The notes under the pieces: model-generated
Told to the model about the DNA's origin: nothing
The model's database searches: none
What the model saw: only the letters and a program-made list of their open reading frames with translations
Program-made: the position numbers and the translations under genes
Assembly (NCBI GenBank): GCA_030640045.1
Contig: DAOWKF010000048.1
Coordinates: 1 to 14,451, forward strand
Origin: Candidatus Omnitrophota bacterium
Lineage (GTDB): Bacteria; NPL-UPA2; BS750m-G34
DNA length: 14,451 bases
Direction of reading: 5' to 3'
Shown here: one piece after another, positions 1 to 14,451 of the stretch
How positions within the stretch are numbered: position 1 is the stretch's first letter
How the letters are laid out: every line of letters starts with the position of its first letter

Positions 1-1206
1 ATGACGACCCAGTTTAAACATGTCCTTCGTTTAAGTCAGAGTCTTTCTCGCGAGATAGATTCTATTTTTATCTGCGGCGGGGCGCTCGTTACCCTTGCGC
101 CGGAATCTTTAAAAGATGCGCCGCTCAACGCGATCTGCCGCGGGGAAGGAGAAGAGGCCGTTCTTGAATTGATAGAGAAGATCGAACAGGGCAGCGATTT
201 TAGAGAAATCAGGAATCTCTGGTGGAAGCAGGACAACGTTGTCTTTCACAATTCCTTAAGGCCGCTTATTTCTGACCTGGACAGCCTCCCGTTTCCGGAC
301 AGGGAAATATTTGACTACCAGGGTATTATTGATTCTGACTTTGGCCAGGCCAGTTTTATCTTCAGCCGCGGGTGCCCTTTTAACTGTTCCTATTGCAGCA
401 ATCATGCTTTTCACAGGATATACGGCGAACCGTATGTGCGTATGAGAGGTGTGGATAAGGCGCTGGGAGAGATAGAGCATGTCGCTTCCCGGTATCGCTT
501 CGATACTATAGTCTTTGATGATGATACTATGACTGCGGATAAAAAATGGCTTAAGGAGTTTTTGGATGGATACAGGAAACATTTCCGTTATCCTTTTGAT
601 TTAAATATAAGGGTAGAGACAGTGGATGAAGAAATATTCCCTCTGCTAAAAGAGGCAGGGTGCCGTAAGGTATCAATCGGCGTTGAGTGCGGGAATGAAA
701 AATTAAGAAAGGAAGTTTTAAGGCGCCGTATGACTAATAACGCTATTATGGAATGTTTTGGCCGGGCTAAGGGCTCAGGCCTTAAGACAAAGTCTTTTAA
801 CTTGATAGGTTTCCCGGGTGAAGATAGGAAGACATTTAGAGATACAATCCGCCTTAATCAGGTTATTAATCCGACTTCTCTTATATTAAATATATTTTAT
901 CCTTATCCCGGGACAGACCTCTATGAAGTATGTCACAAAAATGGATATATCGGAGAGGAAAGTAAAACATTTCGGGAAAGGGATGATACGATCTTAAATC
1001 TCCCGGATTTCCCGAGAAAAGATATTATTAATTTCTACAGGAAGTTTGGCTATCTTGTGTATCTACATACTAATCTCTGGAAGGCCGTGGTTTATTTATT
1101 CCGCTATTCCCCGTTGGGTGAACCTTTTTTAAGGTGGATAGAGAAGAATCTTTATCTTGGGGGTCGATACGCCAAGAGGATGATAAAGATTTTATCAAGG
1201 GCTTGA
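1..1206 (+). CDS. B12-binding-type radical SAM protein, 5' end cut off by window edge
   Basis: Radical SAM enzyme of the cobalamin-dependent class, which reductively cleaves S-adenosylmethionine and often methylates unreactive carbons. Seen: the CX3CX2C [4Fe-4S] motif at C125, C129 and C132; an FDDD stretch at 172-175; and a YPYPGTDLYE motif near residue 300, typical of this class. Residues 1-60 are only the second half of a B12-binding domain (IFICGG near 22-27, GEGEE at 48-52). The first half of the Rossmann-like domain is missing. The ATG at position 1 is therefore probably an internal Met and the gene starts upstream of the window. The C-terminal 70 residues are basic and partly hydrophobic, which may favour membrane contact. 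The gene ends 11 nt before the DegT-family gene and looks like part of the same operon. The substrate cannot be read from sequence; a glycan or lipid is inferred from the neighbours. Confidence 0.9.
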   Translation: MTTQFKHVLRLSQSLSREIDSIFICGGALVTLAPESLKDAPLNAICRGEGEEAVLELIEKIEQGSDFREIRNLWWKQDNVVFHNSLRPLISDLDSLPFPDREIFDYQGIIDSDFGQASFIFSRGCPFNCSYCSNHAFHRIYGEPYVRMRGVDKALGEIEHVASRYRFDTIVFDDDTMTADKKWLKEFLDGYRKHFRYPFDLNIRVETVDEEIFPLLKEAGCRKVSIGVECGNEKLRKEVLRRRMTNNAIMECFGRAKGSGLKTKSFNLIGFPGEDRKTFRDTIRLNQVINPTSLILNIFYPYPGTDLYEVCHKNGYIGEESKTFRERDDTILNLPDFPRKDIINFYRKFGYLVYLHTNLWKAVVYLFRYSPLGEPFLRWIEKNLYLGGRYAKRMIKILSRA

Positions 1207-1211
1207 AAGGA
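1206..1211 (+). promoter_or_regulatory. Ribosome binding site that sets the start of the DegT-family gene
   Basis: AAAGGA lies 6 nt before the ATG at 1218 and overlaps the stop codon of the preceding gene. The frame stays open back to an ATG at 1134, but that would add 28 charged residues unlike the family N-terminus and overlap the upstream gene by 73 nt. The Shine-Dalgarno match favours 1218. Confidence 0.6.
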
Positions 1212-1217
1212 AAGAAG

Positions 1218-2420
1218 ATGTTTCGTATTACAGTAGGTACGGTCAATATCGGAGAAGTGACAAAGAAGAGGGTTATGGCGATACTTGATTCCAACCGCCT
1301 TTCCTCCGGTAAATATGTAGAAGAATTTGAAGACAAATTTGCCCGTTATCATGGAACCAGCTCTGCTGTAGCAGTTTCGACCGGGACCGATGCATGCACT
1401 ATTGCCCTGGCAATGTTACACGATATTACATCTGCCCGTGATGATGAGGTAATACTGCCCGCCCTTACATTTGTAGCAACTGCGAATGCAGCGCTTCATG
1501 CGGGTTTCAGGCCTGTTTTTGTGGACGTAGACAGAGATACTTATAATATCAATCCGGAGAAGATAGAAGAGGCTATTGGCGCTAATACGCGGGCTATTAT
1601 GCCAGTGCATTTATTCGGCCGGCCTTGTGAGATGGATAAAATTATGGATATAGCCGCGGTAAAAAATCTCCGTGTCATAGAGGATGCCTCAGAGGCCCAC
1701 GGAGCCCTCTATCACGGAAAGAAGGTGGGGACATTTGGCAGTCTTGCTGCATTCAGTTTCTATGTAGCCCATATTGTTACTACAGGTGAAGGAGGGGCTA
1801 TTATTACTAATGATGAAGAACTTGCCGCATCCGCACGTTCACTCCGCGCCCATGGCAGGGCGTGTAAATGCAAAAAATGTGTCCTGAATATTTCGTCTTC
1901 AAGGTGCCCTTTGAGGTTTGAGCTTGATGAGAATAAAGACAGGCGATTTTTCTTTGAGCGTATCGGTTATTCCAGTAAGATGAATGAGGTAGAGGCGGCT
2001 ATTGGCCTGGAACAGATTGATAAACTCGATGAGATTATTGAAAAACGCCGCAAGAATCTTGATTTTTTAAATACACATCTTAAAGAATTTGAAGAATATT
2101 TTCAACTATTTAAAGATAAAGAAGGAGAGGTCATCAGCCCTCTGGCGTATCCTGTTTTGATAAGACGGGGCAGTAAATTGCAGAGGAAAGATATAGTAGA
2201 TTTTTTGGAAAAAAACGGGATAGAGACAAGGCCGATGTTTTCTTCTATCCCGACCCAGCAGCCGGCTTATAAATATCTTGGTTTAAAACCCGGTCAATTC
2301 CCTGAGGCTGAATATATAGGAACGCACGGCTTCTATATAGGAGTTCACCAGGACATTAAAGAAGAAGATTTATATTTTGTAGTAGAAACAATAAAAAAGT
2401 TTATAAAAAAGAAAGGTTAA
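1218..2420 (+). CDS. DegT/DnrJ/EryC1-fold PLP enzyme with His in place of the Schiff-base Lys (probable nucleotide-sugar 3-dehydratase)
   Basis: A 400-residue member of the fold-type I sugar aminotransferase superfamily. Seen: STGTDA at 54-59 (phosphate-binding region), D156 in VIEDASEAHG (pyridine-N contact) and TTGEGG at 188-193. In ordinary sugar aminotransferases the motif before GEGG carries the PLP lysine (SFYATKNLTTGEGG type). Here it reads SFYVAHIVTTGEGG, so H185 replaces Lys; the codon is cat at 1770-1772. The same exchange is established for ColD (GDP-4-keto-6-deoxymannose 3-dehydratase) and E1/DdhC/RfbH, which remove the C3 hydroxyl using PMP. Four cysteines (C216, C218, C221, C230) lie where E1 enzymes carry [2Fe-2S] ligands, but the more N-terminal E1 cysteine is S158 here. 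The C-terminal GFYIGVHQ motif also resembles the dehydratase branch. The gene lies 1 nt before an epimerase/reductase gene. Inferred role: C3 deoxygenation of an NDP-4-keto-6-deoxysugar. Aminotransferase activity is unlikely without Lys. Confidence 0.88.
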   Translation: MFRITVGTVNIGEVTKKRVMAILDSNRLSSGKYVEEFEDKFARYHGTSSAVAVSTGTDACTIALAMLHDITSARDDEVILPALTFVATANAALHAGFRPVFVDVDRDTYNINPEKIEEAIGANTRAIMPVHLFGRPCEMDKIMDIAAVKNLRVIEDASEAHGALYHGKKVGTFGSLAAFSFYVAHIVTTGEGGAIITNDEELAASARSLRAHGRACKCKKCVLNISSSRCPLRFELDENKDRRFFFERIGYSSKMNEVEAAIGLEQIDKLDEIIEKRRKNLDFLNTHLKEFEEYFQLFKDKEGEVISPLAYPVLIRRGSKLQRKDIVDFLEKNGIETRPMFSSIPTQQPAYKYLGLKPGQFPEAEYIGTHGFYIGVHQDIKEEDLYFVVETIKKFIKKKG

Positions 2421-2421
2421 A

Positions 2422-3393
2422 ATGCCATACTGGAAAAATCGTTGGGTCCTGGTTACAGGAGGCTGCGGGTTTATCGGCTCGCATGTTGTTGAGAAATTAA
2501 TAGAGCTCGGAGCAAAGGTCAGGGTCGCGGATAATCTATCACAGGGAGAAGTTTCTTGTTTAGAAAAGGTCAAAAAGAAGATTGAATTTAAAAACATCGA
2601 ACTAACTAACATAGACAAAGCAACAAAGGTGTGTAAAGGGATGGATGTGGTTATGCACCTTGCTGCAAAGGTAGGGGGGATTGGGTATAACATTGCGCAT
2701 CCCGGAGAGATGTTCTATAAAAATGTGGTTTTGAATACAACGATTATGGAAGCGGCAAGGCTTGCAGGGGTAGAAAGGTTCCTAACGGTAAGTTCTGCCT
2801 GTGTTTATCCGCGTTTTTGCACTATACCTACTCCTGAAGAAGAAGGATTTAAAGACGATCCTGATCCAAGCAATTTTGGTTATGGCTGGTCAAAAAGGGT
2901 AGCTGAAATACAGGCCAGATCCTATAACCGGGAATACAAAGATTTTAAGATAGCTATAGCCAGGCCATATAATTGTTATGGGCCACGCGATGATTTCGAT
3001 TTGAATACCTGTCATGTTATTCCTGCCCTTATCCACAAGGTAGAGGAAGGTCAAAACCCGCTAATTGTGCGAGGCACAGGAGAGGAGACACGGGCATTTA
3101 TCTATGTAGAAGATTTCGCAGAGGGTGTGATATTGCTTACAGAGAGATATCCTGAGTCTGATCCTGTCAATATCGGGACAACCGAGGAGATAAAGATAAA
3201 AGACCTTGCCTATCTTATAGTAGAGCTTTCCGGAAAGAAGATAGCTGTCCAATTTGATACCTCCAAACCTTCCGGCCAGCCAAGACGCAATGCCGATGTC
3301 CGTAAAGCCAAAGAAAAGATCGGTTTTGAGGCACGCACCCCTCTAAAAGAAGGCATTGCCAGGACTATAGAATGGTACCGAAAAAAACTTTAG
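2422..3393 (+). CDS. Extended SDR, GDP-L-fucose synthase / GDP-mannose 3,5-epimerase-like
   Basis: A 323-residue NAD(P)-dependent nucleotide-sugar epimerase/reductase. Seen: TGGCGFIGSH at 12-21 for dinucleotide binding; LAAKVGGIG at 80-88, a hallmark of GDP-fucose synthase relatives; SSACVYP at 124-130, with C127 matching the catalytic Cys of GDP-fucose synthase and GDP-mannose 3,5-epimerase; Y154-x3-K158 as the catalytic pair; RPYNCYGPRDD at 181-191; and an RRNAD segment near the C-terminus as in GDP-mannose epimerases. A GAAAGG ribosome binding site (2411-2416) precedes the ATG, which lies 1 nt after the upstream stop, so the two products are probably made together. Known relatives epimerise C3 and/or C5 and may reduce C4. 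The colitose synthase ColC belongs to this group. Inferred: it acts on the product of the upstream His-type dehydratase. The exact sugar is unknown, and a plain GDP-sugar epimerase remains possible. Confidence 0.9.
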   Translation: MPYWKNRWVLVTGGCGFIGSHVVEKLIELGAKVRVADNLSQGEVSCLEKVKKKIEFKNIELTNIDKATKVCKGMDVVMHLAAKVGGIGYNIAHPGEMFYKNVVLNTTIMEAARLAGVERFLTVSSACVYPRFCTIPTPEEEGFKDDPDPSNFGYGWSKRVAEIQARSYNREYKDFKIAIARPYNCYGPRDDFDLNTCHVIPALIHKVEEGQNPLIVRGTGEETRAFIYVEDFAEGVILLTERYPESDPVNIGTTEEIKIKDLAYLIVELSGKKIAVQFDTSKPSGQPRRNADVRKAKEKIGFEARTPLKEGIARTIEWYRKKL

Positions 3394-4061
3394 TTATTTT
3401 GACCCTGAATGAGATAGCGGGGGTAAGGGCGCTTTACCCTAAGATCCCTTTTGATAAGGCCGATGAGGTTCTCGTTATAGACGGGGGTTCAGAGGATGGG
3501 ACTATCGAGTTTTTTAAGGAAAAGGGCATCCCTGTGCATATCCAGGAGGTCAGGGGAAGGGGAGAGGCATTTCGCCTGGCCTGTAAACTAAGCAAGGGCA
3601 CTGATCTCCTGTTCTTCAGTCCTGATGGCAATGAAGACCCGGATGACATTCCGCGCCTTTTTAAACTCCTTGAAGAAGGGAATGATTTAGCCGTTGCCTC
3701 CAGATTCCTTTCGGGATCAAGAAACGATGAAGCAGAAAAATTATTGCCCCTGCGCGCGTGGGCCAACAGGATTTTTACAATTTTAGCTGACATATTTTTT
3801 AGAGGGAAGATGGCAGATACCATCAATGGCTACCGCGCTATTAAAAAAGACAAATTCATGCTTCTTAACCTTGACGTGTCAGGTTTTGCGATTGAATACC
3901 AGATGTCAATCAGGGCTATGAAATTAGGGTTCCGCATAGCTGAAATCCCCACCATAGAGGGGGACCGCATTGGCGGCGAAAGCACTGCCTATTCCATTCC
4001 CACAGGCCTCAAGATTTTAAAAATATTTCTGCGGGAGCTTGTGATTGGCAGAAAATTTTAG
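3372..4061 (+). CDS. GT2 glycosyltransferase, DPM1-like
   Basis: A 229-residue soluble GT-A fold transferase of the dolichyl-phosphate-mannose-synthase type, which usually moves a sugar from a nucleotide donor to a polyprenyl phosphate. Seen: LTLNE at 10-14, VIDGGSEDGT at 35-44 (nucleotide-binding turn), FFSPDGNEDP at 81-90 and INGYRAI at 151-157. The metal-binding DXD is read here as S83-P84-D85, with Ser replacing the first Asp. I believe this is a subfamily trait rather than damage. There is no C-terminal membrane domain. The start lies 22 nt inside the preceding gene, with AGGA at 3361-3364 seven nt upstream of the ATG. The donor and acceptor cannot be told from sequence. Confidence 0.9.
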   Translation: MVPKKTLVILTLNEIAGVRALYPKIPFDKADEVLVIDGGSEDGTIEFFKEKGIPVHIQEVRGRGEAFRLACKLSKGTDLLFFSPDGNEDPDDIPRLFKLLEEGNDLAVASRFLSGSRNDEAEKLLPLRAWANRIFTILADIFFRGKMADTINGYRAIKKDKFMLLNLDVSGFAIEYQMSIRAMKLGFRIAEIPTIEGDRIGGESTAYSIPTGLKILKIFLRELVIGRKF

Positions 4062-4069
4062 ATCACCGC

Positions 4070-4768
4070 ATGTTCGATGAAGTCAGTGTTGTTTTTCCTG
4101 CCTTTAATGAAGAAGAAAATATCTTGTCCCTTTTAAATAAATCCCGGGAAGTTTTTTCCCGATATTTTAAAAACTGGGAAATAATTGTTGTCAATGACGG
4201 AAGCGCTGATAATACTAAGGATAAGGTTGAAAGATTGGCTCAGGAAGACAAGCGGATTAGAGTTATCTCGCATGCGAAAAATTTCGGCTACGGCGGGGCA
4301 CTTCGGACGGGTTTCAGGGAGGCGCAATTTAAACTTGTATTCTTTAGTGACAGCGACAGGCAGTTTGATATGGAGGAGATTAGCCTGCTTTTGCCCTGTC
4401 TTGAGAAAGCAGATATAGTGACTGGATACCGGGTAACCAGGGCGGACCCATTCCACAGAATTTTAAATGCGTTGTTATATAACTGGCTGGTGAGGGTTAT
4501 TTTTGCAATAAAGATTAGAGATGTAAATTGCGCGTTTAAATTCATCAAGCGTCCTGTCCTTGAAACAATATCCTTAGAATCAAATGGCGCTTTGGTTAAT
4601 GCGGAACTTTTATACAAAGCAAAAAAGAATAGTTTTAAGATTGTAGAAGTCCCTGTCCATCATTACCCCAGAAAAAGCGGGTCTCAGACCGGGGCAAGGC
4701 CCGGGGTAGTATTCAGGATGTTCTTCGAGCTTTTAAAATGGAGAATAAAGTGGGGTTGTATAGGTTAA
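4070..4768 (+). CDS. GT2 glycosyltransferase, DPM1-like, with intact DXD
   Basis: A 232-residue GT-A glycosyltransferase. Seen: VVFPAFNEEENI at 7-18; VVNDGSADNT at 40-49; NFGYGGALRTGF at 71-82; the metal site DSD at 94-96; DVNCAFKFIKR at 151-161; and a VPVHHYPRKSG segment at 194-204, common in polyprenyl-phosphate glycosyltransferases. It is similar in length and plan to the preceding GT2 but clearly divergent from it, so this is not a recent duplication. The start lies 8 nt after the upstream stop without a clear Shine-Dalgarno, so translation probably depends on ribosomes finishing the gene before it. Inferred role: loading a sugar onto undecaprenyl phosphate, or adding an early residue of the glycan. 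The donor is unknown. Confidence 0.9.
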   Translation: MFDEVSVVFPAFNEEENILSLLNKSREVFSRYFKNWEIIVVNDGSADNTKDKVERLAQEDKRIRVISHAKNFGYGGALRTGFREAQFKLVFFSDSDRQFDMEEISLLLPCLEKADIVTGYRVTRADPFHRILNALLYNWLVRVIFAIKIRDVNCAFKFIKRPVLETISLESNGALVNAELLYKAKKNSFKIVEVPVHHYPRKSGSQTGARPGVVFRMFFELLKWRIKWGCIG

Positions 4769-5817
4769 GCTTACAAAAGGCATTAATAGCTTTTGTAATT
4801 GATATAGTTGGCTATACAATATTTGGACCGTATATTATTGCCCGCGAAATTTTTTTCCGAAAAAGTTTTTCTCCGTCTTCAATCCTCTTACTCCGGCTTG
4901 ACCATATGGGAGATGTGCTTATGGCAACGCCTGCAATTATTGCCTTGAAAAAACAGTTTCCCTCTGCGCGGATTACAGTAGGGGTTAAAGAGGTAAACCG
5001 CTGTCTTATCTCTCTTCCAGGAATAGTAACTACCACTGTCCCACCTGTGCGGTGGAAGATGTGGGTTTCACTGCGGAAAGAAAAGTTTGATCTTGTGATA
5101 GATTTCAAAGGGGATCTTAGAAATATAATATTGCTTTTTTTAACAGGAAGTAAGGAACGCGTAAGTTATGGCATAAGGGGTGGGGGATTTCTGCTTACAA
5201 AAAGGGTTAAATATATTTCCGGCATAAGGCATGAAATAGATAGAAACCTGGATATAGTAAAGGCTATTGCCGGAGAAGCTGAGAGGCAAGTCCCGCGTTA
5301 TGATGTGAGCGCTGAAAAGGAAGCAAAAGGTGAGAAAGTTATTGGTATACATCCCGGCGCAAATTCTTCTTCCAAGAGATGGCCTGCTTCCTATTTTGCG
5401 CGACTTGCTAATAGGATTGAAAAAGAGGGGCTTGGAAGGGTTATTGTATTTGTCGGACCAAATGAAGAGAGAGTCATCAATGAGATGAAACAGAACCTTG
5501 ATCCCCGGATTCTTATAAGGGATGATTTACCTTTGGAGGCATTAGCTGTAGAGTTTAAAAAATTAGATCTATTCATCGGTAATGACAGCGGCCCGTTTCA
5601 TCTCGCTGAGGCTGTAGGCACAAAGGTGATAACTATATTCGGGGCAACATATCCCGAGATAGTCGGCCCTGTAAGCAGCAATAGTGTAATTATAAAAACC
5701 AAGCGCTCCTGTGCTCCATGTAGAATGCCGGGACAGAAAGAAAGATGTAAAAGCTTCGACTGCCTCAAGGAGATATCAGTGGATGAAGTGTATGAGGTTG
5801 TGAAAAGAAATTTATGA
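4738..5817 (+). CDS. GT9 glycosyltransferase, ADP-heptose:LPS heptosyltransferase-like
   Basis: A 359-residue GT-B enzyme of the WaaC/WaaF/WaaQ group. Seen: LLRLDHMGDVLMATPA at 51-66 (the N-terminal signature of the family); GIHPGA at 203-208 and KRWP at 213-216 in the nucleotide-sugar half; GNDSGPFHLAEAVGT at 281-295; and C325, C328, C337 and C342 in the usual C-terminal cysteine cluster. Residues 12-39 form an extra hydrophobic stretch before the catalytic fold, a likely membrane anchor. The ATG at 4738 overlaps the previous gene by 31 nt. GTG at 4750 is an alternative start with GGAG (4740-4743) six nt upstream. GT9 enzymes normally add heptose to lipopolysaccharide core. Here the donor is not certain, because no heptose-forming gene is in the window. 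Confidence 0.93.
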   Translation: MENKVGLYRLSLQKALIAFVIDIVGYTIFGPYIIAREIFFRKSFSPSSILLLRLDHMGDVLMATPAIIALKKQFPSARITVGVKEVNRCLISLPGIVTTTVPPVRWKMWVSLRKEKFDLVIDFKGDLRNIILLFLTGSKERVSYGIRGGGFLLTKRVKYISGIRHEIDRNLDIVKAIAGEAERQVPRYDVSAEKEAKGEKVIGIHPGANSSSKRWPASYFARLANRIEKEGLGRVIVFVGPNEERVINEMKQNLDPRILIRDDLPLEALAVEFKKLDLFIGNDSGPFHLAEAVGTKVITIFGATYPEIVGPVSSNSVIIKTKRSCAPCRMPGQKERCKSFDCLKEISVDEVYEVVKRNL

Positions 5818-6941
5818 CCATTCTTCAGGTCGCTACCGGAATTTCGCTATATGGAGGGGAGAGGATTCTTTTATCTCTTGCTAAACATCTAAAGGAAACT
5901 GGCCACCGTGTTATTATCGTAAGCCCTGGAAAGGGCGAATTTGTTGATGTATGTCGTGAACTCGGGCATGAGGTAGTGGTTATCCCCCTGAAAAAGACCT
6001 ATGACCTTATGGCAGTGCTGCGTATCTCACGCCTTATTAAAAAAGAGAAGATAGATATTGTCCATAGCCACGGCCTCCTTGTAAATATTATAAGCCGGCT
6101 TGCTTCATATCTCTCAGGATGTCCAATAGTTAATACCATACATGTTATCCAGCATCTAAGCAGCAATTCCGCAGGAGTTTCCAGGAGGATAAGGAATATG
6201 TACTACAGGACCCTGGATAATTTTACTTCCGGGTTCTGCCGGAAGGTTATCACTGTCTCGGATGCAGTAAAGAGAGATCTCTTAAAACAGGGATTAGAAG
6301 AAGATAAATTGGTCACCATCCCTAATGGCATAGAAGAAAATCCCTTAGGCGAAGCCATCCCTTTGGGGGTACTTCCGTCCGGGTGTGGAGAGAATGAGAA
6401 GATAGTGGGGCTGGTTGGAAGGATAGCCCCACTTAAAGGGCACGATGATTTTATAACAGCAGTAAAGATTTTAATGTCTTCTAATCCAGGGCTAAAATTT
6501 CTAATTGTGGGTGAAGATATTGCCCATGGGGGAAGGTATTTAAATAATTTAAAGGAGAGGGTAAAGAAGGAGGGATTGGAGGGACGTGTCATATTTACCG
6601 GATTTGTTAAATCTATAAGAAAGGTAATGGCAGATTTTGCCGTCCTTACCCTCCCTGCATGGGAGGAGCCGTTTGGACTGGTAATTTTAGAGGCAATGTC
6701 ATTGGGGGTGCCGGTTGTTGCCACTAATGCCGGGGGGATCCCCGAGATAATTAAAGACAATGTGAATGGGCTCCTTATCCCACCGCGTTCTCCGGGAAAA
6801 CTTAGTGAGGCAATCTTGAAGATTCTGAATAATAAAAATCTTGCGACAAGACTTGCTCAAGAGGGCCTCAATACTGTAAAATATTATACAGCCCGGAGGA
6901 TGGCGAAGAGTATAGAGGATGTCTATCGTAATGTGATATGA
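5814..6941 (+). CDS. GT4 retaining glycosyltransferase
   Basis: A 375-residue GT-B glycosyltransferase. Seen: ISLYGGERILLSLA at 10-23 (N-terminal glycine loop), DIVHSHG at 81-87, VGRIAPLKGHDDF at 201-213 opening the donor domain, and the EX7E pair E285/E293 in EEPFGLVILEAM, followed by GVPVVATNAGGIPEII. The length is normal for the family and no catalytic element is missing. It starts at an ATGA overlap with the GT9 gene, so the two are translationally coupled. It probably extends the glycan on the cytoplasmic face of the inner membrane. The sugar and linkage cannot be assigned from sequence. Confidence 0.93.
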   Translation: MTILQVATGISLYGGERILLSLAKHLKETGHRVIIVSPGKGEFVDVCRELGHEVVVIPLKKTYDLMAVLRISRLIKKEKIDIVHSHGLLVNIISRLASYLSGCPIVNTIHVIQHLSSNSAGVSRRIRNMYYRTLDNFTSGFCRKVITVSDAVKRDLLKQGLEEDKLVTIPNGIEENPLGEAIPLGVLPSGCGENEKIVGLVGRIAPLKGHDDFITAVKILMSSNPGLKFLIVGEDIAHGGRYLNNLKERVKKEGLEGRVIFTGFVKSIRKVMADFAVLTLPAWEEPFGLVILEAMSLGVPVVATNAGGIPEIIKDNVNGLLIPPRSPGKLSEAILKILNNKNLATRLAQEGLNTVKYYTARRMAKSIEDVYRNVI

Positions 6942-8092
6942 AAGTATTAGCTATAACCCGCACTGCTGTTGTAACCAGTCACAGAGAGCGTTTTAAGGCC
7001 TTATCTAAATTTGAGGATATAGACCTTACTGTAGTATGTCCTGAATACTGGGTGGAGGGGTATCGCAAGATCCATATGGAGAAAAACCGTGAGGAGACAT
7101 ATAAGCTCATAACCCTTCCGACCTTTTCCTGGCGCCTGCCCTGGGGGACAATGAAGAATGTGACATACAGATACCGGGATCTGGATAAGGTTATAGAAAA
7201 GGTCCAACCGGATATATTTGATGTGCTGGAAGAACCTTATAGCATGGTTACAGCTCACACCCTCCGTTTAAAAGAAAGATTATGTCCTGATGCGAAATTT
7301 ATCTTCTATTCAGCCCAGAATATAAAAAAGAGGTATCCCCTGCCGTTCCGCTCAGCTGAAAAATATGTATTTAATAAATCCGATTTTTCTTTCCCTGTAA
7401 GTCTGGGGGTCAAAGATATCCTTTCTCAGAAAAGTTTTTCTAAGGGCATGGAAGTTATTCCATGGGGCGTTGACCCTGAAATCTTTAAGCGCCTGCAGGT
7501 AACTGAATTGAAAAAGGGATTAAAACTCAGGAGATTTACAGTCGGATATGCAGGCAGGCTGGTAAAGGAGAAAGGTATTATTGAGTTAATGAGGGCAGTA
7601 GCAGGTCTCGAAGATGACACATCATTTCTTATTATCGGCAGCGGTCCTTTAGAGAAAAAGATCAGGAGGCTTAGCCGCAGACTTAATATGAAAGACAGGG
7701 TTATTATAAAAGGAGGATGTAAGAGAGAAGAAATGCCTCGGTATCTGAGCGCTATGGACATTCTAATAGTGCCGTCCCGTACAACCAAAAAATGGAAGGA
7801 GCAATTCGGACGTATAATTATTGAGGCATGGGGATGTTTTGTGCCTGTGATTGGGTCAAGTTCCGGACATATTCCAGAACTTATCGGGCAGGCAGGTCTT
7901 ATCTTTGAAGAAGGAGATGTGCTTGAGATGAGACATAAGATAAAGCAGGTAAAGAAAAATATCCGGCTGCGCCTTCAGCTTATTGAGAGGGGAAAGGTGC
8001 AAGTCAGGGATAACTATACCTGGGAGAAGGTAGCGGGGAAAATCCACGATGTTTATCAGAAATTATTGCAAACGGAATCTCTAACAGGATGA
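6938..8092 (+). CDS. GT4 family glycosyltransferase
   Basis: A 384-residue GT-B protein. The N-terminal acceptor domain is less typical than in its neighbour but has DIFDVLEEPYS at 92-102 and YSAQNIKKRYP at 124-134. The donor domain is clear: VGYAGRLVKEKGI at 202-214, LIIGSGPLEKKI at 231-242, and the EX7E pair E288/E296 in KEQFGRIIIEAWGC. The segment GSSSGHIPELIG at 306-317 follows, as in GT4 enzymes. It starts by an ATGA overlap with the upstream GT4 and ends by an ATGA overlap with the radical SAM gene. No Shine-Dalgarno is seen, so reinitiation is likely. Inferred: another glycan-assembly step; the donor is unknown. Confidence 0.91.
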   Translation: MKVLAITRTAVVTSHRERFKALSKFEDIDLTVVCPEYWVEGYRKIHMEKNREETYKLITLPTFSWRLPWGTMKNVTYRYRDLDKVIEKVQPDIFDVLEEPYSMVTAHTLRLKERLCPDAKFIFYSAQNIKKRYPLPFRSAEKYVFNKSDFSFPVSLGVKDILSQKSFSKGMEVIPWGVDPEIFKRLQVTELKKGLKLRRFTVGYAGRLVKEKGIIELMRAVAGLEDDTSFLIIGSGPLEKKIRRLSRRLNMKDRVIIKGGCKREEMPRYLSAMDILIVPSRTTKKWKEQFGRIIIEAWGCFVPVIGSSSGHIPELIGQAGLIFEEGDVLEMRHKIKQVKKNIRLRLQLIERGKVQVRDNYTWEKVAGKIHDVYQKLLQTESLTG

Positions 8093-9501
8093 AAATCGCT
8101 CTTATTGATCCACCTGGCACAAGTAGAGGCCTTAATACCGGTCTGGCCTATATAGCAGGGAATGTCCTGGAGAGGAGGGCAGGTGATATTGTAAAGGTCT
8201 TTGACTTTAATAACAATAGAAAGCTGGTCAAGGAACGGACAGGGGAGATTGGGGAATATGATGTCATTGCCCTATCCGTTAAGTCATTTACTATAAATAC
8301 GGGTTTTTCTATACTGGATAGAATACCATTAAAGAAAGATAGTATTGTTATTTTTGGTGGGCCGCACATTTCATTAGAGGGAAAGGATTTTTTTAAAAAA
8401 CATAACAGGATTAACGCGATACTTAAAGGTGAAGGAGAAAGCGCCTTTATAGAATTTCTGGAATGGTGTGATGGAAAAAGGAACGGCCATGATATCAAAG
8501 GCTTAAGCATCTGCCGGGGAGGAGAAGTTGTCTCCGATGGGGCTGTGGTCATTGAAGAAGACCTGGATAACTTACCATTCCCCTGTTACAGCGTGTTTGA
8601 TTCTATTTCCGGAAGCATCGATAATTATCCTTTACTTACAAGCCGGGGATGCCCCTATCAATGCATCTATTGCAGTGTTGGGCTTATATCCGGAAAAAGA
8701 TGGCGTAGCAGAAAAATTGAGTCTATTATAAAAGAGATTAAATCAGCCCGGGAAAAATTCGGTTTTAAATATTTTTTTATTATTGATGACAATTTTACCT
8801 TAAAAAAAGAACATGCCAAAGAATTCTGCCGGGCCCTTATTGCCGATAAAATTAATTTAAAATGGACCCTTCCCAATGGGATCCGCGCGGATAAAGTAGA
8901 TGAAGAGCTGATGAGTCTGATGAAGTCTTCAGGATGCGAGGCTGTATCTTTCGGCGTCGAAAGCGCTGATCCTGAAGTTTTTAAGAATATAGGCAAGGGT
9001 GAGACTCTAAAAGAGATTGAATCTGCTATAGAGCTCTGCAAGAAATATAATCTAAGGGTAAGCGGGAAATTTATCATAGGACTGCCCGGCTCAAACCGCA
9101 GGAGTACCGGGCAATCCCTTCGATGGGCAAAAAAAACAGGATTTTGTGAAGTCAACTGGAACCTCCTCGTCCCTTATCCCGGGACAGGGGCATATGAGTT
9201 TATAAATAAAAACGGACGTTTCATCCGTCCATGGGAAGAGGGATTTCATTTTGGCCCCTCCCCCAGGGTGACCTTTGAAATAGATTCCTATCCTGCAAAA
9301 CAGATGGAAAGAGATATGAGAAGGGCAAATGTATCATCCTCTAACCTCCTCTCTTTTTATGACCCTAACAATAGTTTTCTATTGAATGGCATCCGTATAC
9401 TACTGCTTATACTGCGTTATGACCCATGGCATGCCGTTTCTCATTTAAGGCACATATTTTTGCGCTGGAAGATGCGGCGCAGGCGATTTGAGTTTGTTTA
9501 A
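8089..9501 (+). CDS. Cobalamin-binding radical SAM protein (complete)
   Basis: A 470-residue enzyme with both domains. Residues 1-125 are a Rossmann-like B12-binding domain: ALIDPPG at 4-10, ALSVKSFT at 61-68, IFGGPHISLEG at 88-98 and KGEGE at 113-117. I do not see the classic DXHXXG lower-ligand motif, which is often absent in this class. Residues 180-400 are the radical SAM barrel, with C188, C192 and C195 (CX3CX2C), FIIDDNFT at 230-237, FGVESADPE and the VPYPGTGAYEF motif. A basic tail ends the protein. Family members methylate unactivated carbons or carry out ring contractions and rearrangements of lipids, antibiotics or sugars. The ATGA coupling to a GT4 gene upstream and the 14-nt overlap with another GT4 downstream argue that it modifies the glycan, its lipid carrier or a nucleotide sugar. 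The substrate is not known. Confidence 0.94.
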   Translation: MKIALIDPPGTSRGLNTGLAYIAGNVLERRAGDIVKVFDFNNNRKLVKERTGEIGEYDVIALSVKSFTINTGFSILDRIPLKKDSIVIFGGPHISLEGKDFFKKHNRINAILKGEGESAFIEFLEWCDGKRNGHDIKGLSICRGGEVVSDGAVVIEEDLDNLPFPCYSVFDSISGSIDNYPLLTSRGCPYQCIYCSVGLISGKRWRSRKIESIIKEIKSAREKFGFKYFFIIDDNFTLKKEHAKEFCRALIADKINLKWTLPNGIRADKVDEELMSLMKSSGCEAVSFGVESADPEVFKNIGKGETLKEIESAIELCKKYNLRVSGKFIIGLPGSNRRSTGQSLRWAKKTGFCEVNWNLLVPYPGTGAYEFINKNGRFIRPWEEGFHFGPSPRVTFEIDSYPAKQMERDMRRANVSSSNLLSFYDPNNSFLLNGIRILLLILRYDPWHAVSHLRHIFLRWKMRRRRFEFV

Positions 9502-10684
9502 AATCTTATATCTCAGTCCTGTATCCTTCATTGGCGGAGCAGAAGAGAGTCTCTGCACATTACTTAAGTTTATTGACAGAAACAAATTTGACCCCCTTGT
9601 TGTATTGCCTTCTAAGGGTCCTCTCGAAGAAAGACTTCTAAAAAATAATGTCCGGGTAGAGATAATTCCATGGGGAAAATTTACTAACCTCTTAAGCCGT
9701 AAAACTCTCTTTTCCATATTTATTCTCCCTTTAACTTTGCCAGAGATTTTTATTCTGTTTATCCGGTTAAGGCATTTTGTAAAAAAGGAGCGCATAGATC
9801 TTATCCACACTAACGGACTTAAATGTCATTTTATCGGGGCAATTCTGGGATTCCTGACAAAGGTTAAGATTGTTTGGCACATCCGTGAGATATATACCTT
9901 ACCTGTCCGAAGCGCCTTGAGGGTTTTTATGGCTCTGCCTATCGGCAGGGCAGAGGTGATAGCTATATCCCGGGCAGTCCAAAACAGGCTCGGGTTTAGT
10001 TCTCCCCATGTGATTTATAACGGGGTTGATACAACCCGCTTTTACCCTTTTAATCCTGATAAAGATCTAAGAGAAGAACTGGGGCTGGCGAGTGGGACAA
10101 AAATCATAACCATGCTCGGTATACTCACTCCCTGGAAAGGGCAGGATATCTTTCTCGAAGCTATTGCCATGCTCAAAACCCGCTTTCCGGATTTAGCGGG
10201 ATTGATTGTTGGGAAAGAACTCTATACTGGAATCGGACACAAAGGTTATCTTGCGTATCTTAAGAGTAAGGTAAAAAAATTAGGGATTGAGAATCAGGTT
10301 AGATTTCTTGGTTTTAGAGATGACATCCCGTATATAATCAATTCTTCATTGGCTATAGTCCATGCCTCACTTAAGCCGGAGCCGTTCGGCAGAGTGCTCA
10401 TAGAGGCTATGGCCTGCGGGAAAGTAGTTTTGGCTGCAAAAGGCGGGGCAGTAGAAGAGATAGTCAGGGACAGAGTAGACGGACTTATTGTAGAAAAAGG
10501 TAATCCGGATGCCCTTGCGCAGGCTATAGGCACCCTGATAGAGGATGAGGCTGTAGATAAAGATATGGGGATGGAAGGGAGACAGAGGATAGAAGAATTA
10601 TTTACCGCAGAGTTGATGACAAAAAATATAGAGAGGTTTTATTTAAAATTTGCGGAATCTCAAAAGTCTTCGACAGGTCGTTAA
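9488..10684 (+). CDS. GT4 glycosyltransferase with TTG start
   Basis: A 398-residue GT-B glycosyltransferase. Seen: FIGGAEESLCTLL at 14-26 (donor-side glycine loop), DLIHTNG at 104-110, LGILTPWKGQDIF at 210-222, LIVGKEL at 239-245, and the EX7E pair E298/E306 in EPFGRVLIEAMACG, followed by AKGGAVEEIV. A hydrophobic stretch at 73-92 may touch the membrane. The start is TTG at 9488, overlapping the radical SAM gene by 14 nt. No ATG or GTG gives a complete N-terminal domain, and the glycine loop lies only 15 residues in, so TTG is the best choice, with a weak AGG nearby. The last 83 nt are antisense to the end of the gene on the opposite strand. It is the last gene of the operon. Confidence 0.92.
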   Translation: MSLFKILYLSPVSFIGGAEESLCTLLKFIDRNKFDPLVVLPSKGPLEERLLKNNVRVEIIPWGKFTNLLSRKTLFSIFILPLTLPEIFILFIRLRHFVKKERIDLIHTNGLKCHFIGAILGFLTKVKIVWHIREIYTLPVRSALRVFMALPIGRAEVIAISRAVQNRLGFSSPHVIYNGVDTTRFYPFNPDKDLREELGLASGTKIITMLGILTPWKGQDIFLEAIAMLKTRFPDLAGLIVGKELYTGIGHKGYLAYLKSKVKKLGIENQVRFLGFRDDIPYIINSSLAIVHASLKPEPFGRVLIEAMACGKVVLAAKGGAVEEIVRDRVDGLIVEKGNPDALAQAIGTLIEDEAVDKDMGMEGRQRIEELFTAELMTKNIERFYLKFAESQKSSTGR

Positions 10685-12080
10685 GCTCTCCATCTTTATA
10701 CTCAAAAATAAAAATGGGGTATGATTTTTCTTTTAGATCTTCGGAGGTAGGCAGGGTGCGGTAGACCTTAAGGGTAGGGTCGCGATAAACAGTGCGTATT
10801 GCATAATTCCATTTTCTGCTGTATGAAAAATTCTGGGGACAAAAGAAGAGGCGGCTATGTGGAGGGAACCCGAGATGCATAGACTGTAATTGCTCAAGGA
10901 TATCCCGGATTTTTTCATTCCGGCGATAAAGTGTAGTAATACGGACCTGCACAAAAAAGATATGGATAATTATAAAAACGCCCAGGCAGATAGAAAGGAT
11001 ACGTTTCCGGGACGTGTGTTTTAAAAAATCCATCAGCTTTAAAAATAAATAGGCCAGGATAGCTATAAACCCCATTGACGGAATATAGTAGTAGCGAGAG
11101 GCTGTGCCCCAGCTAAAGAAGAGAAATGGAAGCAGGGTTATATAGATCCACAGTGTATAAAATTTTATAAAAGCAGGCCCCCGGATTATAGCTATTAGAC
11201 TTAGCACGGGAAGCAGTATTGAGAATATTTTTACTAAAAAAGGTAGGAGGATATTTAACAGTGGGAAGAAGGCCTTTACAGGGAATTTAGGGATATTTCG
11301 AGATGGGAGTATAAAGGTAGTCAGGTAGGTAGAGAGGTTAGAGAATATATGAGGCCCGATCATATCTTTCTTTCCGGAATAGGGGAGAGAAAACATAGCT
11401 GATAGATATATGACTAAAATTAAAATAAAAGGGATATACGGCTTTATGAGTTTTTGGTCATTCCACGACTTGATCGGGGAATCTAATTTATTATAATAGA
11501 AAAATATGTCATATAAAATAAATAATGCAAAGACCGTTACCGCCCATTCCTTACAGAGAAGGGCGGATATAAAACTTACTAAAGAAAAAAACCAATAAGC
11601 AATCTTTCCCTTCTTGCGGTACATAATAAAGTTATAAAGTGAAGACAGGAAAAAAAATGAAGTAATTAAACCGGGCAGTCCGTCTATCCAGATGACTATC
11701 TGATTATAAGGAGAAAAAACAGAGAATAAAAACGTAGTCAAAAATGCCAATTTTTTATTCTGGCTGATTCCCTGAATGATATAATAAAGTAATATACAAT
11801 TTAAGGCATGGATAAATAGAATTACAAGATGATAATAAATCGCATTTAAGTGAAAAAGTTTATAAAAGATGAGAAATGCAATATTTATTAAAGGGGCAAA
11901 ACTGCCGGGACTAAATCTAAATATAAATGGAAGGTCGAGTCCCTTAAGCGCCCCATAGAGAAATACCCAATCATCCCCGGAGAAATAGATAGGGAGAGAG
12001 CGGGCATAGACTGTGATGATAATGAGAGGTGAAAGTATAAGTGAATATTTTTTCATAAATTTCTCGACTCCGCCTTTCAT
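10602..12080 (-). CDS. GT-C fold membrane protein, GT39/TMTC-like
   Basis: A 492-residue multi-spanning membrane protein with roughly 11-12 hydrophobic segments between residues 12 and 377 and a soluble tail of about 110 residues. SGDDW at 34-38, right after the first membrane segment, matches the acidic motif in the first outer loop of GT-C glycosyltransferases. LLCKEWAVTVFALFILYD at 174-191 and SRYYYIPSMGF at 328-338 recall the PMT/TMTC type. Such enzymes take sugars from polyprenyl-phosphate carriers and act on the outer face of the membrane. The gene looks more AT-rich than the + strand operon. It stands alone on its strand and its 3' end overlaps the last operon gene by 83 nt. The first ATG (12080) has no Shine-Dalgarno. 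The ATG at 12056 (484 residues) has GGAG 11 nt upstream and may be the true start. No specific acceptor can be named. Confidence 0.82.
   Translation of the reverse strand: MKGGVEKFMKKYSLILSPLIIITVYARSLPIYFSGDDWVFLYGALKGLDLPFIFRFSPGSFAPLINIAFLIFYKLFHLNAIYYHLVILFIHALNCILLYYIIQGISQNKKLAFLTTFLFSVFSPYNQIVIWIDGLPGLITSFFFLSSLYNFIMYRKKGKIAYWFFSLVSFISALLCKEWAVTVFALFILYDIFFYYNKLDSPIKSWNDQKLIKPYIPFILILVIYLSAMFSLPYSGKKDMIGPHIFSNLSTYLTTFILPSRNIPKFPVKAFFPLLNILLPFLVKIFSILLPVLSLIAIIRGPAFIKFYTLWIYITLLPFLFFSWGTASRYYYIPSMGFIAILAYLFLKLMDFLKHTSRKRILSICLGVFIIIHIFFVQVRITTLYRRNEKIRDILEQLQSMHLGFPPHSRLFFCPQNFSYSRKWNYAIRTVYRDPTLKVYRTLPTSEDLKEKSYPIFIFEYKDGELNDLSKTFEIPQILNKTSLYFLSSTLR
12068..12071 (-). promoter_or_regulatory. 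Possible ribosome binding site for the internal start of the GT-C gene
   Basis: On the - strand this reads GGAG, 11 nt before the ATG at 12056. The spacing is slightly long. It matters because the first ATG at 12080 has no such site and overlaps the candidate -10 box. Confidence 0.35.
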
Positions 12081-12107
12081 TGTAGCATACTAAAATATGA
12101 AGGACAA
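12079..12107 (-). promoter_or_regulatory. Candidate sigma-70 type promoter for the GT-C gene
   Basis: On the - strand TTGTCC (12102-12107) and TACAAT (12079-12084) are separated by exactly 17 nt. They match the TTGACA/TATAAT consensus at 4 and 5 of 6 positions. Transcription would start near 12072, downstream of the first ATG and upstream of the one at 12056. This favours the shorter protein. Found by eye in AT-rich DNA, so moderate to low confidence. Confidence 0.4.
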
Positions 12108-12114
12108 TTTATAA

Positions 12115-12143
12115 TTTACTTTAGTCAAGATTTTATGTATAAT
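12115..12143 (+). promoter_or_regulatory. Candidate sigma-70 type promoter for the epimerase gene
   Basis: TTTACT (12115-12120) and a perfect TATAAT (12138-12143) are separated by 17 nt. The expected transcription start, about 12149-12151, lies only a few bases before the ATG at 12153, so the transcript would be leaderless or nearly so. The AAGGGA at 12145-12150 is 2 nt from the ATG, too close to serve as a normal ribosome binding site. Confidence 0.5.
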
Positions 12144-12152
12144 TAAGGGATA

Positions 12153-13190
12153 ATGAAGGTAATTGTTACTGGCGGAGCAGGATTTGTCGGAAGCCATGCA
12201 GTTGAATATTATGCAAGCAGGGGTAATGATGTATTGGCCTTTGACAATCTCTCGCGGGGAAAACTTCTGGGCCATTCAATAAAAAGCCTCTACTATAACT
12301 GGGAATATCTCAAAAAATATAAGAATATTAAGCTTGTTAAAGGTGATATCTGCGATTTTAATAGATTTAAGAGGGCTTGTCAGGGAGCCAATGTAATTAT
12401 CCATACTGCAGCCCAGACTGCCGTAACCAGCTCTATTGCTAGTCCGAGAATAGATTTTGAAAATAATACCATAGGGACATTCAATATCCTGGAGATAAGC
12501 CGTAGCTTAAAACCAAAACCGGTTATTATATTCTGCTCAACCAATAAGGTCTATGGCAGTAATGTAAATAGAATCTCAGTGAGAGAAGGTATAAAGAGGT
12601 ATAGTTTTACTGGAAAATATCGTAGAGGTATAAATGAAAAGTTTCCCATTGATCTCTGTGAACATACTCCATACGGCTCTTCTAAGCTCAGCGGTGATAT
12701 TTATATGCAGGACTACGCCAATCTCTATGGATTAAGAATCGGGGTGTTTCGTATGTCGTGTATATATGGCCCCAGACAGTTTGGTCTGGAGGAGCAGGGA
12801 TGGGTAGCCTGGTTTATCATAGCAGCTATTCTTAAAAAACCGATTACTATCTACGGTGACGGAAAACAAGTGCGGGATATCCTCTATGTCACAGACCTTG
12901 TAGAGGCCTATGAATTATTTCGAAAGTCAGGGCTAAAACATGGTGTGTATAATATCGGCGGCGGCTTTAAAAATACCCTTTCTCTGTTGGAGTTATTAGA
13001 CATACTCGCTAAACATATCGGGAAAAGGCCTGCGTATAGATTTAAGAAATGGAGACCTTCTGATCAGAAGGTCTATATTTCAGATTTGAGCCGGGTCAAA
13101 AAGGAACTGAAGTGGCAGCCCAGGACAGATTATCGTGAAGGGATTTTTAGATTAATATCATGGGTCAAGAAAAATAGAAACCTGTTTTGA
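12153..13190 (+). CDS. Extended SDR, CDP-paratose 2-epimerase (tyvelose epimerase, RfbE)-like
   Basis: A 345-residue NAD-dependent nucleotide-sugar epimerase. Seen: TGGAGFVGSH at 6-15; HTAAQTAVTSSI at 84-95; STNKVYG at 129-135; the catalytic pair Y174-x3-K178 in TPYGSSK; SCIYGPRQFG at 202-211; QGWVAWF at 215-221; and YGDGKQVRD at 234-242. The STNKVYG, RQFG, QGWVAWF and GKQVRD set is characteristic of CDP-tyvelose/CDP-paratose 2-epimerases, which invert C2 using a bound NAD. The substrate in this genome need not be CDP-paratose, because relatives of this family occur in other sugar pathways. The gene stands apart from the operon, with its own candidate promoter just before the start codon, and is convergent with the radical SAM gene downstream. 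It fits a deoxysugar pathway together with the His-type DegT enzyme. Confidence 0.92.
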   Translation: MKVIVTGGAGFVGSHAVEYYASRGNDVLAFDNLSRGKLLGHSIKSLYYNWEYLKKYKNIKLVKGDICDFNRFKRACQGANVIIHTAAQTAVTSSIASPRIDFENNTIGTFNILEISRSLKPKPVIIFCSTNKVYGSNVNRISVREGIKRYSFTGKYRRGINEKFPIDLCEHTPYGSSKLSGDIYMQDYANLYGLRIGVFRMSCIYGPRQFGLEEQGWVAWFIIAAILKKPITIYGDGKQVRDILYVTDLVEAYELFRKSGLKHGVYNIGGGFKNTLSLLELLDILAKHIGKRPAYRFKKWRPSDQKVYISDLSRVKKELKWQPRTDYREGIFRLISWVKKNRNLF

Positions 13191-13210
13191 ATACATTAAA
13201 TTATCTGGGG

Positions 13211-13233
13211 TTAACAAAACACTTGTTTTTTAA
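13211..13233. terminator. Weak hairpin between convergent genes
   Basis: TTAACAAAAC and GTTTTTTAA around an ACTT loop can pair into about nine base pairs with one bulged C, almost all A-T. It lies between the epimerase gene and the oppositely directed radical SAM gene, where a shared terminator would be expected. It lacks a GC-rich stem and a separate T-run outside the stem, so the call is weak. The rest of 13191-13327 shows nothing I can support. Confidence 0.25.
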
Positions 13234-13327
13234 AAATTATCCAGCTCAGGTTATACTTTTCGCTACAGCCATGTGTAATATGAGGTTTATATAAATGTAC
13301 ATTGAAGGATATCTTTTGAGAAATAAA

Positions 13328-14451
13328 TTATGTCTCATGGATAGTGGCCCTTAGGTCAGCCTCAAAAAAGGTCTTGCGTATATATCTTATGATTTTGATA
13401 TCCAAAGAAAAATCAAAAAAAGTATGATTAAATCTAAATTGAAAATATTTACTGAGAGGTACACTGATAAGACGTGCCAATTTTCTTAAAATAGGATTAT
13501 CAATGGAATCAGAGAGATAAGGAACTACATTGGCAAGTGAACTTATATAAGTAAGATTACCCAATCTTTTTTGATCCTTTTTGCTAAACCAAGGATTACG
13601 GCCTTTAATATCAGCTTCATGAAAATTCCATTGTGTCCATTTTTCAAGACTCTTAGGGGCCTTTAGGCCATGGCTCAAGGCAAGTGGATAAAGCGGGGTC
13701 CCGGGAAGAGCAGTATAGATACAGATAGACTCAGTAATAGCCTGGGGATTATCACGCTTTAATTTTTTAATCGCTGATATAGTCATTTTTATATCTTCGA
13801 AAGTCTCTGTTGGAAAACCAGCCATAAAAGAAAAGGCAGGTATCAACCCAAATCTTCTGGCCAGAAGATTTGCCTTAAAGGTCTCCTCCACTGTAATTTT
13901 TTTCTCCATTAATTTTAATATACGGTTACTTCCTGATTCAGCTCCGAATTTTAAGACATTGGCGCCGCTTTTTTTGAGCAATTCAACAGTTTCGCCTTTC
14001 AAAGCTAAAAAATTATCCACCCTTGTTCCGGAAGAATACCAGTGTATATTAAGATTGGCTTTTATCACCCCCTGGCAGATAGCCTTAAGCCTTTTTTCAT
14101 CTATAAAAAAATTATCATCCCGGATCCAGATAGAGTCCAGATTAAAACGTCTTACATCTCCTACAATCTTCTCCATGGCCTTTTCTACAGACATCGCCCG
14201 CCACTTTCTTTTTCTAATGCTGGCACTGCAGCAAAAGCCACAATTATATGGACATCCGCGTGAGGTCTGGCCAATGTCCAACACCCGGCGGCTATTTTCT
14301 AAATAAAAATCCCTATGGATATAATTTTCCACATTTATCAGTTCCCATGGAGTATGTAGAAGAGTATTGACATCTAAAAGAGGTCGTGAAGGATTCATGA
14401 TTATCTTTCCTTGTGATTTAAAGCCGAGACCTTTAATCTTAGATAAATCAT
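13328..14451 (-). CDS. B12-binding-type radical SAM protein, 5' end beyond window edge
   Basis: The visible 373 residues contain the radical SAM barrel. Counting from the Met at 14398: CX3CX2C at C49, C53 and C56 (with an adjacent extra C57), IWIRDDNFF at 90-98, KFGAESGS in the middle, MAGFPTETFED, and a YTALPGTPLYPLA motif equivalent to the YPGT segment of its relatives. That Met is not the real start. The frame stays open through 14399-14449, and those 17 codons (KIKGLGFKSQGKII among them) are the typical link between a B12-binding domain and the radical SAM barrel. The B12 domain itself should lie just outside the window. The gene is convergent with the epimerase gene and probably belongs to a separate transcript entering from the right. 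Its role is unknown; the context suggests glycan or lipid modification. Confidence 0.9.
   Translation of the reverse strand, partial: DLSKIKGLGFKSQGKIIMNPSRPLLDVNTLLHTPWELINVENYIHRDFYLENSRRVLDIGQTSRGCPYNCGFCCSASIRKRKWRAMSVEKAMEKIVGDVRRFNLDSIWIRDDNFFIDEKRLKAICQGVIKANLNIHWYSSGTRVDNFLALKGETVELLKKSGANVLKFGAESGSNRILKLMEKKITVEETFKANLLARRFGLIPAFSFMAGFPTETFEDIKMTISAIKKLKRDNPQAITESICIYTALPGTPLYPLALSHGLKAPKSLEKWTQWNFHEADIKGRNPWFSKKDQKRLGNLTYISSLANVVPYLSDSIDNPILRKLARLISVPLSKYFQFRFNHTFFDFSLDIKIIRYIRKTFFEADLRATIHET

Follow-up and report, generated by a model that had tools for sequence, protein, structure and literature searches.

Three enzymes, E1, ColD and SpnQ, are the only well-characterized nucleotide-sugar 3-dehydratases named in section 25 of a review of the field (PMC8987622), where they are described as sharing a Schiff base between pyridoxamine 5'-phosphate (PMP) and the substrate, proton abstraction by a His residue and loss of the C3 hydroxyl. 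According to the same review, the resulting intermediate is hydrolysed in ColD, which lacks a cluster and whose PMP is restored by glutamate, and is reduced in E1 and SpnQ, which possess four cysteines and a [2Fe-2S] cluster working with E3 or with ferredoxin/flavodoxin systems (PMC8987622). In this study, a related gene was analysed on a 14,451-nucleotide contig of a Candidatus Omnitrophota bacterium (DAOWKF010000048.1, positions 1 to 14,451; assembly GCA_030640045.1), which is referred to at its full length as the window. The encoded protein carries a His at the position of the pyridoxal 5'-phosphate (PLP) lysine and four cysteines in one downstream loop, and is probably a PMP-dependent GDP-4-keto-6-deoxysugar 3-dehydratase with an E1-like iron–sulfur (Fe–S) cluster on a rearranged ligand set. 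The union of a B6 cofactor with an Fe–S cluster is rare, and why E1 requires its cluster when ColD does not need one is an old question.

The translation of positions 1218-2417 reads SFYVAHIVTTGEGG. This protein matched PF01041 with 367.3 bits, over the Pfam gathering cut-off, which makes it a member of the DegT/DnrJ/EryC1/StrS family, and its top NCBIfam model was RfbH (NF011936), with 303.1 bits and thus short of the cut-off of 423. The AlphaFold2 model showed an aspartate-aminotransferase-like fold with a predicted local distance difference test score (pLDDT) of 96.0; a control model of an E1 relative had a pLDDT of 89.0, with 51-64 for its loop blocks. In the alignment, H185 fell in the column of E1 H220, which reads SFYPAHHIT in the wild-type (3bcx) and SFYPAKHIT in the mutant 3bb8, titled 'E1 Dehydrase H220K Mutant' in the PDB, and the same column is altered in the H188N mutant of ColD (3b8x, compared with 2gms). 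Counted along 3bcx, the cysteines of E1 are C193, C251, C253, C257 and C261, at −27, +31, +33, +37 and +41 relative to the His; the window protein has a Ser at −27 and Cys at +31, +33, +36 and +45. The aligned pairs are S158 with C193, C216 with C251, C218 with C253, and C230 with C261, the last of which immediately precedes an RF motif. E1 reportedly possesses an 'unusual [2Fe-2S]-binding motif', in the words of a paper title found in a review's reference list; we take its cluster ligands to be C193, C251, C253 and C261, among which C221 has no counterpart.

Neither described arrangement was found in the window protein. The E1 ligand set, consisting of an upstream Cys and CX1CX7C, is replaced by S158 and a loop with the spacing CX1CX2CX8C (C216, C218, C221 and C230), while the ColD pattern of a His without cluster cysteines is contradicted by the four loop cysteines of this protein and of 48 relatives. 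A first-pass annotation of the window had reported a His at the PLP-lysine position, a cysteine quartet preceded by S158, and an exact match to neither E1 nor ColD. The first is borne out by the alignment with E1 H220 and ColD H188, the residues named in the second are exact in the translation, with its interval 1770-1907 running precisely from H185 to C230, and the third holds for the sequence family.

Genomes, viral contigs and plasmids were searched for relatives, and the four-Cys label was given to proteins with CxCxxC plus a fourth loop cysteine. In total, 49 four-Cys proteins were collected, 39 with the spacing CX1CX2CX8C and ten with CX1CX2CX6C (the CX6C subgroup), derived from 42 genomes (the window's included), five metagenome-assembled-genome contigs (L027 and four from Selenomonadales/Selenomonadaceae), one plasmid (pDMC1 of Solidesulfovibrio magneticus; protein WP_148208558.1) and a viral-collection contig (L156); one of the 48 relatives, L031, is a 261-residue fragment of an interrupted frame. 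Recurrence of the four cysteines in 48 other proteins rules out a single-genome oddity. Of the 386 genomes in a broad sample, 15 had a match at 1e-90 (ten four-Cys, including that of the window, and five E1-type by motif); at 1e-100, matches came from 39 of the 334 genomes of one large phylum. Both genome counts are lower bounds, the best four or five candidates per genome having been scored. The phylum search gave 40 matches and returned 30 loci (28 four-Cys and two Cys-less), about ten matches being left out without a locus.

The loop cysteines are invariant in the 49 rows by construction, because they defined the label; however, among 34 loci chosen irrespective of cysteines (L252-L285), 32 had all four, two had none and none had a partial set. 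The four cysteines were retained in homologues with as little as 41% identity (L150). Residue 185 was His in all 49 four-Cys proteins; residue 158 was Ala in 48, Ser in the window protein and Cys in none, so the S158 of the first-pass annotation is true of the window protein without being the family residue. A degenerate DNA pattern for HGR[AG]CxCxxCV had a single match in the window and none in 200 shuffled versions, and a pattern scan of viral contigs for HGRxCxCxxC gave 18 stretches, none yielding a His-type row. Two E1-type proteins on viral contigs (L109 9881-11221 and L110 9854-11203) were observed to have an extra loop cysteine while keeping the upstream Cys.

Under the usual database label, the protein would be an ordinary sugar aminotransferase whose Lys has been replaced by His, and the nearest solved structures by sequence are indeed sugar aminotransferases such as GDP-perosamine synthase, which is also among the closest by fold, with E1 and ColD next; a Solidesulfovibrio relative is likewise annotated as a DegT-family aminotransferase. 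GDP-perosamine synthase (3bn1), which yields a 4-amino sugar, is among the nearest solved Lys enzymes and shares fold and overall sequence similarity with the window protein, but has an active-site Lys and no such cysteine loop. As described in the review, SpnQ can transaminate in the absence of a reductase, whereas transamination by E1 required the H220K exchange and was still not catalytic (PMC8987622). The PLP lysine is absent throughout the four-Cys proteins, and a tree was built without the loop columns and column 158 from 81 of 161 de-duplicated rows, fragments shorter than 340 residues being excluded (15/15 four-Cys, 12/12 E1, ColD, 27/45 other His and 26/88 Lys rows). All 55 His rows lay on one side of a branch with 100/100 support and the 26 Lys rows on the other; the window protein therefore lies outside the ordinary aminotransferases, a place among which would, according to the first-pass annotation, have refuted its proposal. 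On the tree and the His in 49/49 proteins, an ordinary aminotransferase was rejected and is regarded as highly improbable.

On the His side of the tree, E1 (12 rows) and 11 of 12 rows labelled ColD-like paired at 100/99 with the four-Cys rows outside, which argues that the four-Cys proteins are not intermediates between E1 and ColD. Of the earlier proposal of an 'intermediate or new class' with its ligands in one loop, the new class thus stands as a sequence family and the intermediate does not. The four-Cys rows shared a weakly supported branch with Cys-less STYVAH-type proteins (80/43), whose rooting as sister to E1 plus ColD is therefore tentative; row L115, labelled ColD-like beforehand, was placed in the new branch. 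A single clade of all four-Cys proteins was rejected (approximately unbiased test, p 2.8e-7), and a Selenomonadaceae four-Cys pair grouped with Cys-less proteins (100/98). Three rows from viral contigs without loop cysteines (L157, L159 and L160) carry a Cys at 158 and nest inside the main four-Cys clade, apparently as natural conversions to a cluster-less form. Cys158 was present in 0/15 four-Cys rows, 12/12 E1 rows, 27/28 rows without loop cysteines and 4/26 Lys rows, and three independent contrasts all ran in the same direction, the loop quartet being present where Cys158 is absent. Parsimony including the Lys rows reconstructed a Cys as the ancestral state of the His clade, with separate gains of the two cysteine sets; it weakly favours such gains, losses being a live alternative.

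Neighbouring genes up to seven positions away in each direction were tallied for the 47 loci at which a four-Cys gene was called (L134, with its four-Cys gene uncalled, stands outside the 47, and its neighbours come from record annotation). Names were taken from NCBIfam/Pfam matches of representatives, most below equivalog cut-offs (the GDP-mannose 4,6-dehydratase of L245 scored 414 bits against a cut-off of 415), and otherwise from the best phmmer match above 60 bits, which is coarse for short-chain dehydrogenases/reductases (SDRs); the loci include near relatives from one phylum, so that the counts are not independent. A GDP-fucose-synthase-like or window-type SDR was found at 35/47 loci (24 'Fcl' and further loci with a window-type SDR), a radical SAM gene at 25/47 and a GDP-mannose 4,6-dehydratase at 17/47. 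In the CX6C subgroup, the latter gene lay directly upstream in 9/9 loci fetched. Among 43 comparison loci, several of them short and four (L163, L066, L110 and L132) with no target gene called, so that counts are lower bounds, it occurred at 0/12 E1 loci and 5/8 ColD-like loci; a CDP-glucose 4,6-dehydratase-like gene was found at 2/47 four-Cys loci versus 6/12 E1 loci. In two Selenomonadales/Selenomonadaceae loci, SDR and four-Cys enzyme are fused in one frame of ~710 residues with the SDR part first (L029 9068-11194 and L030 5592-7712). Downstream of this fusion, a mannose-1-phosphate-guanylyltransferase-like gene, named from sequence, was also observed.

Furthermore, a recurrent but variable cluster, seen at L241, L244, L245, L156, L287, L290 and others, combines an HddA-like kinase, an HddC-like guanylyltransferase, a split transketolase or E1_dh pair, a radical SAM gene, SDRs and the four-Cys enzyme, and has the look of a branched deoxy-sugar pathway not described before. 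Relatives of the heptose-7-phosphate kinase HddA (23/47) and the heptose-1-phosphate guanylyltransferase HddC (21/47), together with split transketolase (15/47) or E1_dh (6/47) pairs, would fit an enzyme that has the Fe–S cluster but does not deoxygenate a GDP-4-keto-6-deoxyhexose at C3, acting for instance on a GDP-heptose derivative or carrying out a reductive isomerization. However, the representatives of both the kinase and the guanylyltransferase fall well short of their NCBIfam cut-offs (162.7 of 600 and 201.2 of 300, respectively), which makes their substrates uncertain, and the CX6C gene directly follows GDP-mannose 4,6-dehydratase at all loci fetched. The SDR adjoining the four-Cys gene in the window is, among four-Cys neighbour genes, nearest to that of the CX6C locus L247 (292.7 bits). 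A different reaction is considered quite unlikely.

Several observations weigh against a cluster-dependent GDP-sugar 3-dehydratase. The cysteine loop is the weakest part of the AlphaFold2 model (pLDDT 78 for block 221-230), and the Selenomonadaceae four-Cys proteins (L028-L031) carry a Cys one residue earlier, at 157 (EDCAEAH). Lys aminotransferases also mostly lack Cys158 (22/26 rows, with Ala in 20/26), so that the upstream Cys may never have been gained rather than lost; its retention in proteins without loop cysteines implies some role beyond cluster binding, which makes its absence a weaker signal, and with three contrasts significance is out of reach (sign test, p 0.25-0.5). No GDP-mannose 4,6-dehydratase was found in the window, the best match in the window's genome being 37% identical, and the context of the Cys-less relatives is less clear, with this gene at 4/23 loci. 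Finally, a FAD_binding_6 gene lay near the four-Cys gene in 0/30 genomes, six of which, the 71% complete genome of the window among them, had none at all; as E1 genes also lacked one nearby in all six control genomes (one without any), this absence is not informative. A scan for Fer2/FNR motifs, crude and without a positive control, gave no lead.

The Cys-less His enzymes in the same branch, nested among four-Cys proteins as L157, L159 and L160 are, imply that a cluster is dispensable for function in this branch. Along with a GDP context like that of ColD-like loci and the lack of a linked reductase in the FAD_binding_6 count, they would suit a ColD-like 3-dehydratase that hydrolyses its intermediate and regenerates PMP with glutamate, the four cysteines binding structural zinc or another non-redox metal. 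This explanation is judged unlikely, since three of the four cysteines occupy E1 cluster-cysteine positions, which would be a curious coincidence if they formed a zinc site; Solidesulfovibrio and Selenomonadaceae, the hosts that are named, are anaerobic as a matter of general knowledge, which suits a cluster, if weakly.

From the catalytic His, the plausible cluster site and the GDP-sugar context taken together, we therefore infer a reductive GDP-4-keto-6-deoxysugar 3-dehydratase, with cluster, cluster type, reaction, substrate and electron donor all predicted; a gene of this aminotransferase-labelled kind most likely makes a deoxy-sugar by oxygen removal. In the proposed mechanism, PMP would condense with the 4-keto group of GDP-4-keto-6-deoxy-mannose (or -heptose), and His185 would remove a proton from the cofactor C4', upon which the C3 hydroxyl departs, as in E1, ColD and SpnQ. 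The PMP-hexoseen would then be reduced by electrons passing through an Fe–S cluster in the loop 216-230 (C216, C218, C221 and C230), in which C221 would stand in for E1 C193, regenerating PMP and giving a GDP-4-keto-3,6-dideoxy sugar that the adjoining SDR might epimerize and/or reduce. In yersiniose, a two-carbon branch is added to the E1 product; by analogy, the split transketolase or E1_dh pairs of the relatives suggest, as a lead only, that such a branch may be attached at C4 of the 4-keto product.

Compared with E1/DdhC/RfbH (CDP-4-keto-6-deoxyglucose 3-dehydrase, 3bcx), the four-Cys branch shares the fold, the catalytic His, three matching loop cysteines and probably an electron-transfer cluster, but has Ser/Ala158 and CX1CX2CX8C (or X6) in place of C193 and CX1CX7C, GDP-sugar genes in place of CDP-glucose 4,6-dehydratase-like ones (6/12 E1 loci), and a separate place in the tree. 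With ColD (GDP-4-keto-6-deoxymannose 3-dehydratase, 2gms) it has in common the fold and the catalytic His and, apparently, a GDP-sugar context with a GDP-fucose-synthase-like partner; in the window, an Fcl-like SDR adjoins the gene (cf. ColC), and GDP-mannose 4,6-dehydratase, absent there, occurs at 17/47 related loci. Conversely, ColD has no loop cysteines, no cluster, a Cys at the 158 position, a tree place with E1 and, as the review describes, a glutamate-regenerated PMP (PMC8987622). SpnQ (dTDP-4-keto-2,6-dideoxyglucose 3-dehydrase), compared here by its description in the review (PMC8987622), is likewise a cluster-using 3-dehydrase, although of a dTDP substrate, and its use of general ferredoxin/flavodoxin reductases would suit a four-Cys gene without a reductase of its own.

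A four-Cys branch beside E1 and ColD with its cysteines in one loop is apparently unstudied; no title listed by a search of the open-access literature concerns it, which does not establish novelty in print. With a probable cluster on a different ligand set, a GDP-sugar context and nested Cys-less proteins, the branch would make the cluster question testable by comparison and by moving one cysteine. A cluster-dependent 3-dehydratase would likewise mean that the aminotransferase annotations of this group need correcting, and would draw attention to a sugar pathway not yet explored. More speculatively, and with considerable doubt, the branch may represent a third class of PMP dehydratases that evolved independently, with an Fe–S site newly built in the 216-230 loop from four local ligands, possibly [4Fe-4S], that makes GDP-linked 3-deoxy sugars with ordinary ferredoxin and feeds a C2-branching split transketolase; if true, many anaerobes would possess a deoxy-branched sugar pathway that has not been described.

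Coordinates of the four-Cys gene, its key codons and the adjoining genes in the window
Feature	Position	Strand	Basis
DegT/DnrJ/EryC1/StrS-fold protein, 400 residues, predicted PMP-dependent GDP-4-keto-6-deoxysugar 3-dehydratase, four-Cys branch	1218..2420	+	translation, Pfam, NCBIfam, tree, AlphaFold2
Ser158 codon, place of E1 upstream Cys193	1689..1691	+	alignment
His185 codon, PLP-lysine position (E1 H220, ColD H188)	1770..1772	+	alignment with 3bcx/3bb8 and 2gms/3b8x
Cys216 codon (E1 C251)	1863..1865	+	translation, alignment
Cys218 codon (E1 C253)	1869..1871	+	translation, alignment
Cys221 codon, extra loop cysteine, proposed fourth ligand replacing E1 C193	1878..1880	+	translation, alignment
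Cys230 codon (E1 C261)	1905..1907	+	translation, alignment
NAD-dependent epimerase/dehydratase (SDR), GDP-L-fucose-synthase-like	2422..3393	+	NCBIfam, PDB matches
Radical SAM protein, apparently truncated at the contig start, with a weak match to B12-binding at the N-terminus	1..1206	+	Pfam

The top NCBIfam model of the SDR was GDPFucSynFcl (195.5 bits, below the cut-off of 500), and its top PDB matches were GDP-L-fucose synthases. A CDP-glucose 4,6-dehydratase, the E1/RfbH-type neighbour, was not named among the scanned window genes, the contig ending just upstream. The first gene of the window matched Radical_SAM with 78.9 bits, over the cut-off, and B12-binding with 24.8 bits, under the cut-off of 32.1 and at the profile end only. 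Together with 8089-9501 and 13331-14449, it is one of three radical SAM or radical-SAM-like genes lying within 14 kb of glycosyltransferase genes. The gene at 13331-14449, on the reverse strand, is radical-SAM-like by similarity, scoring 420.5 bits against L156 6912-8429 and at most 80 bits against others.
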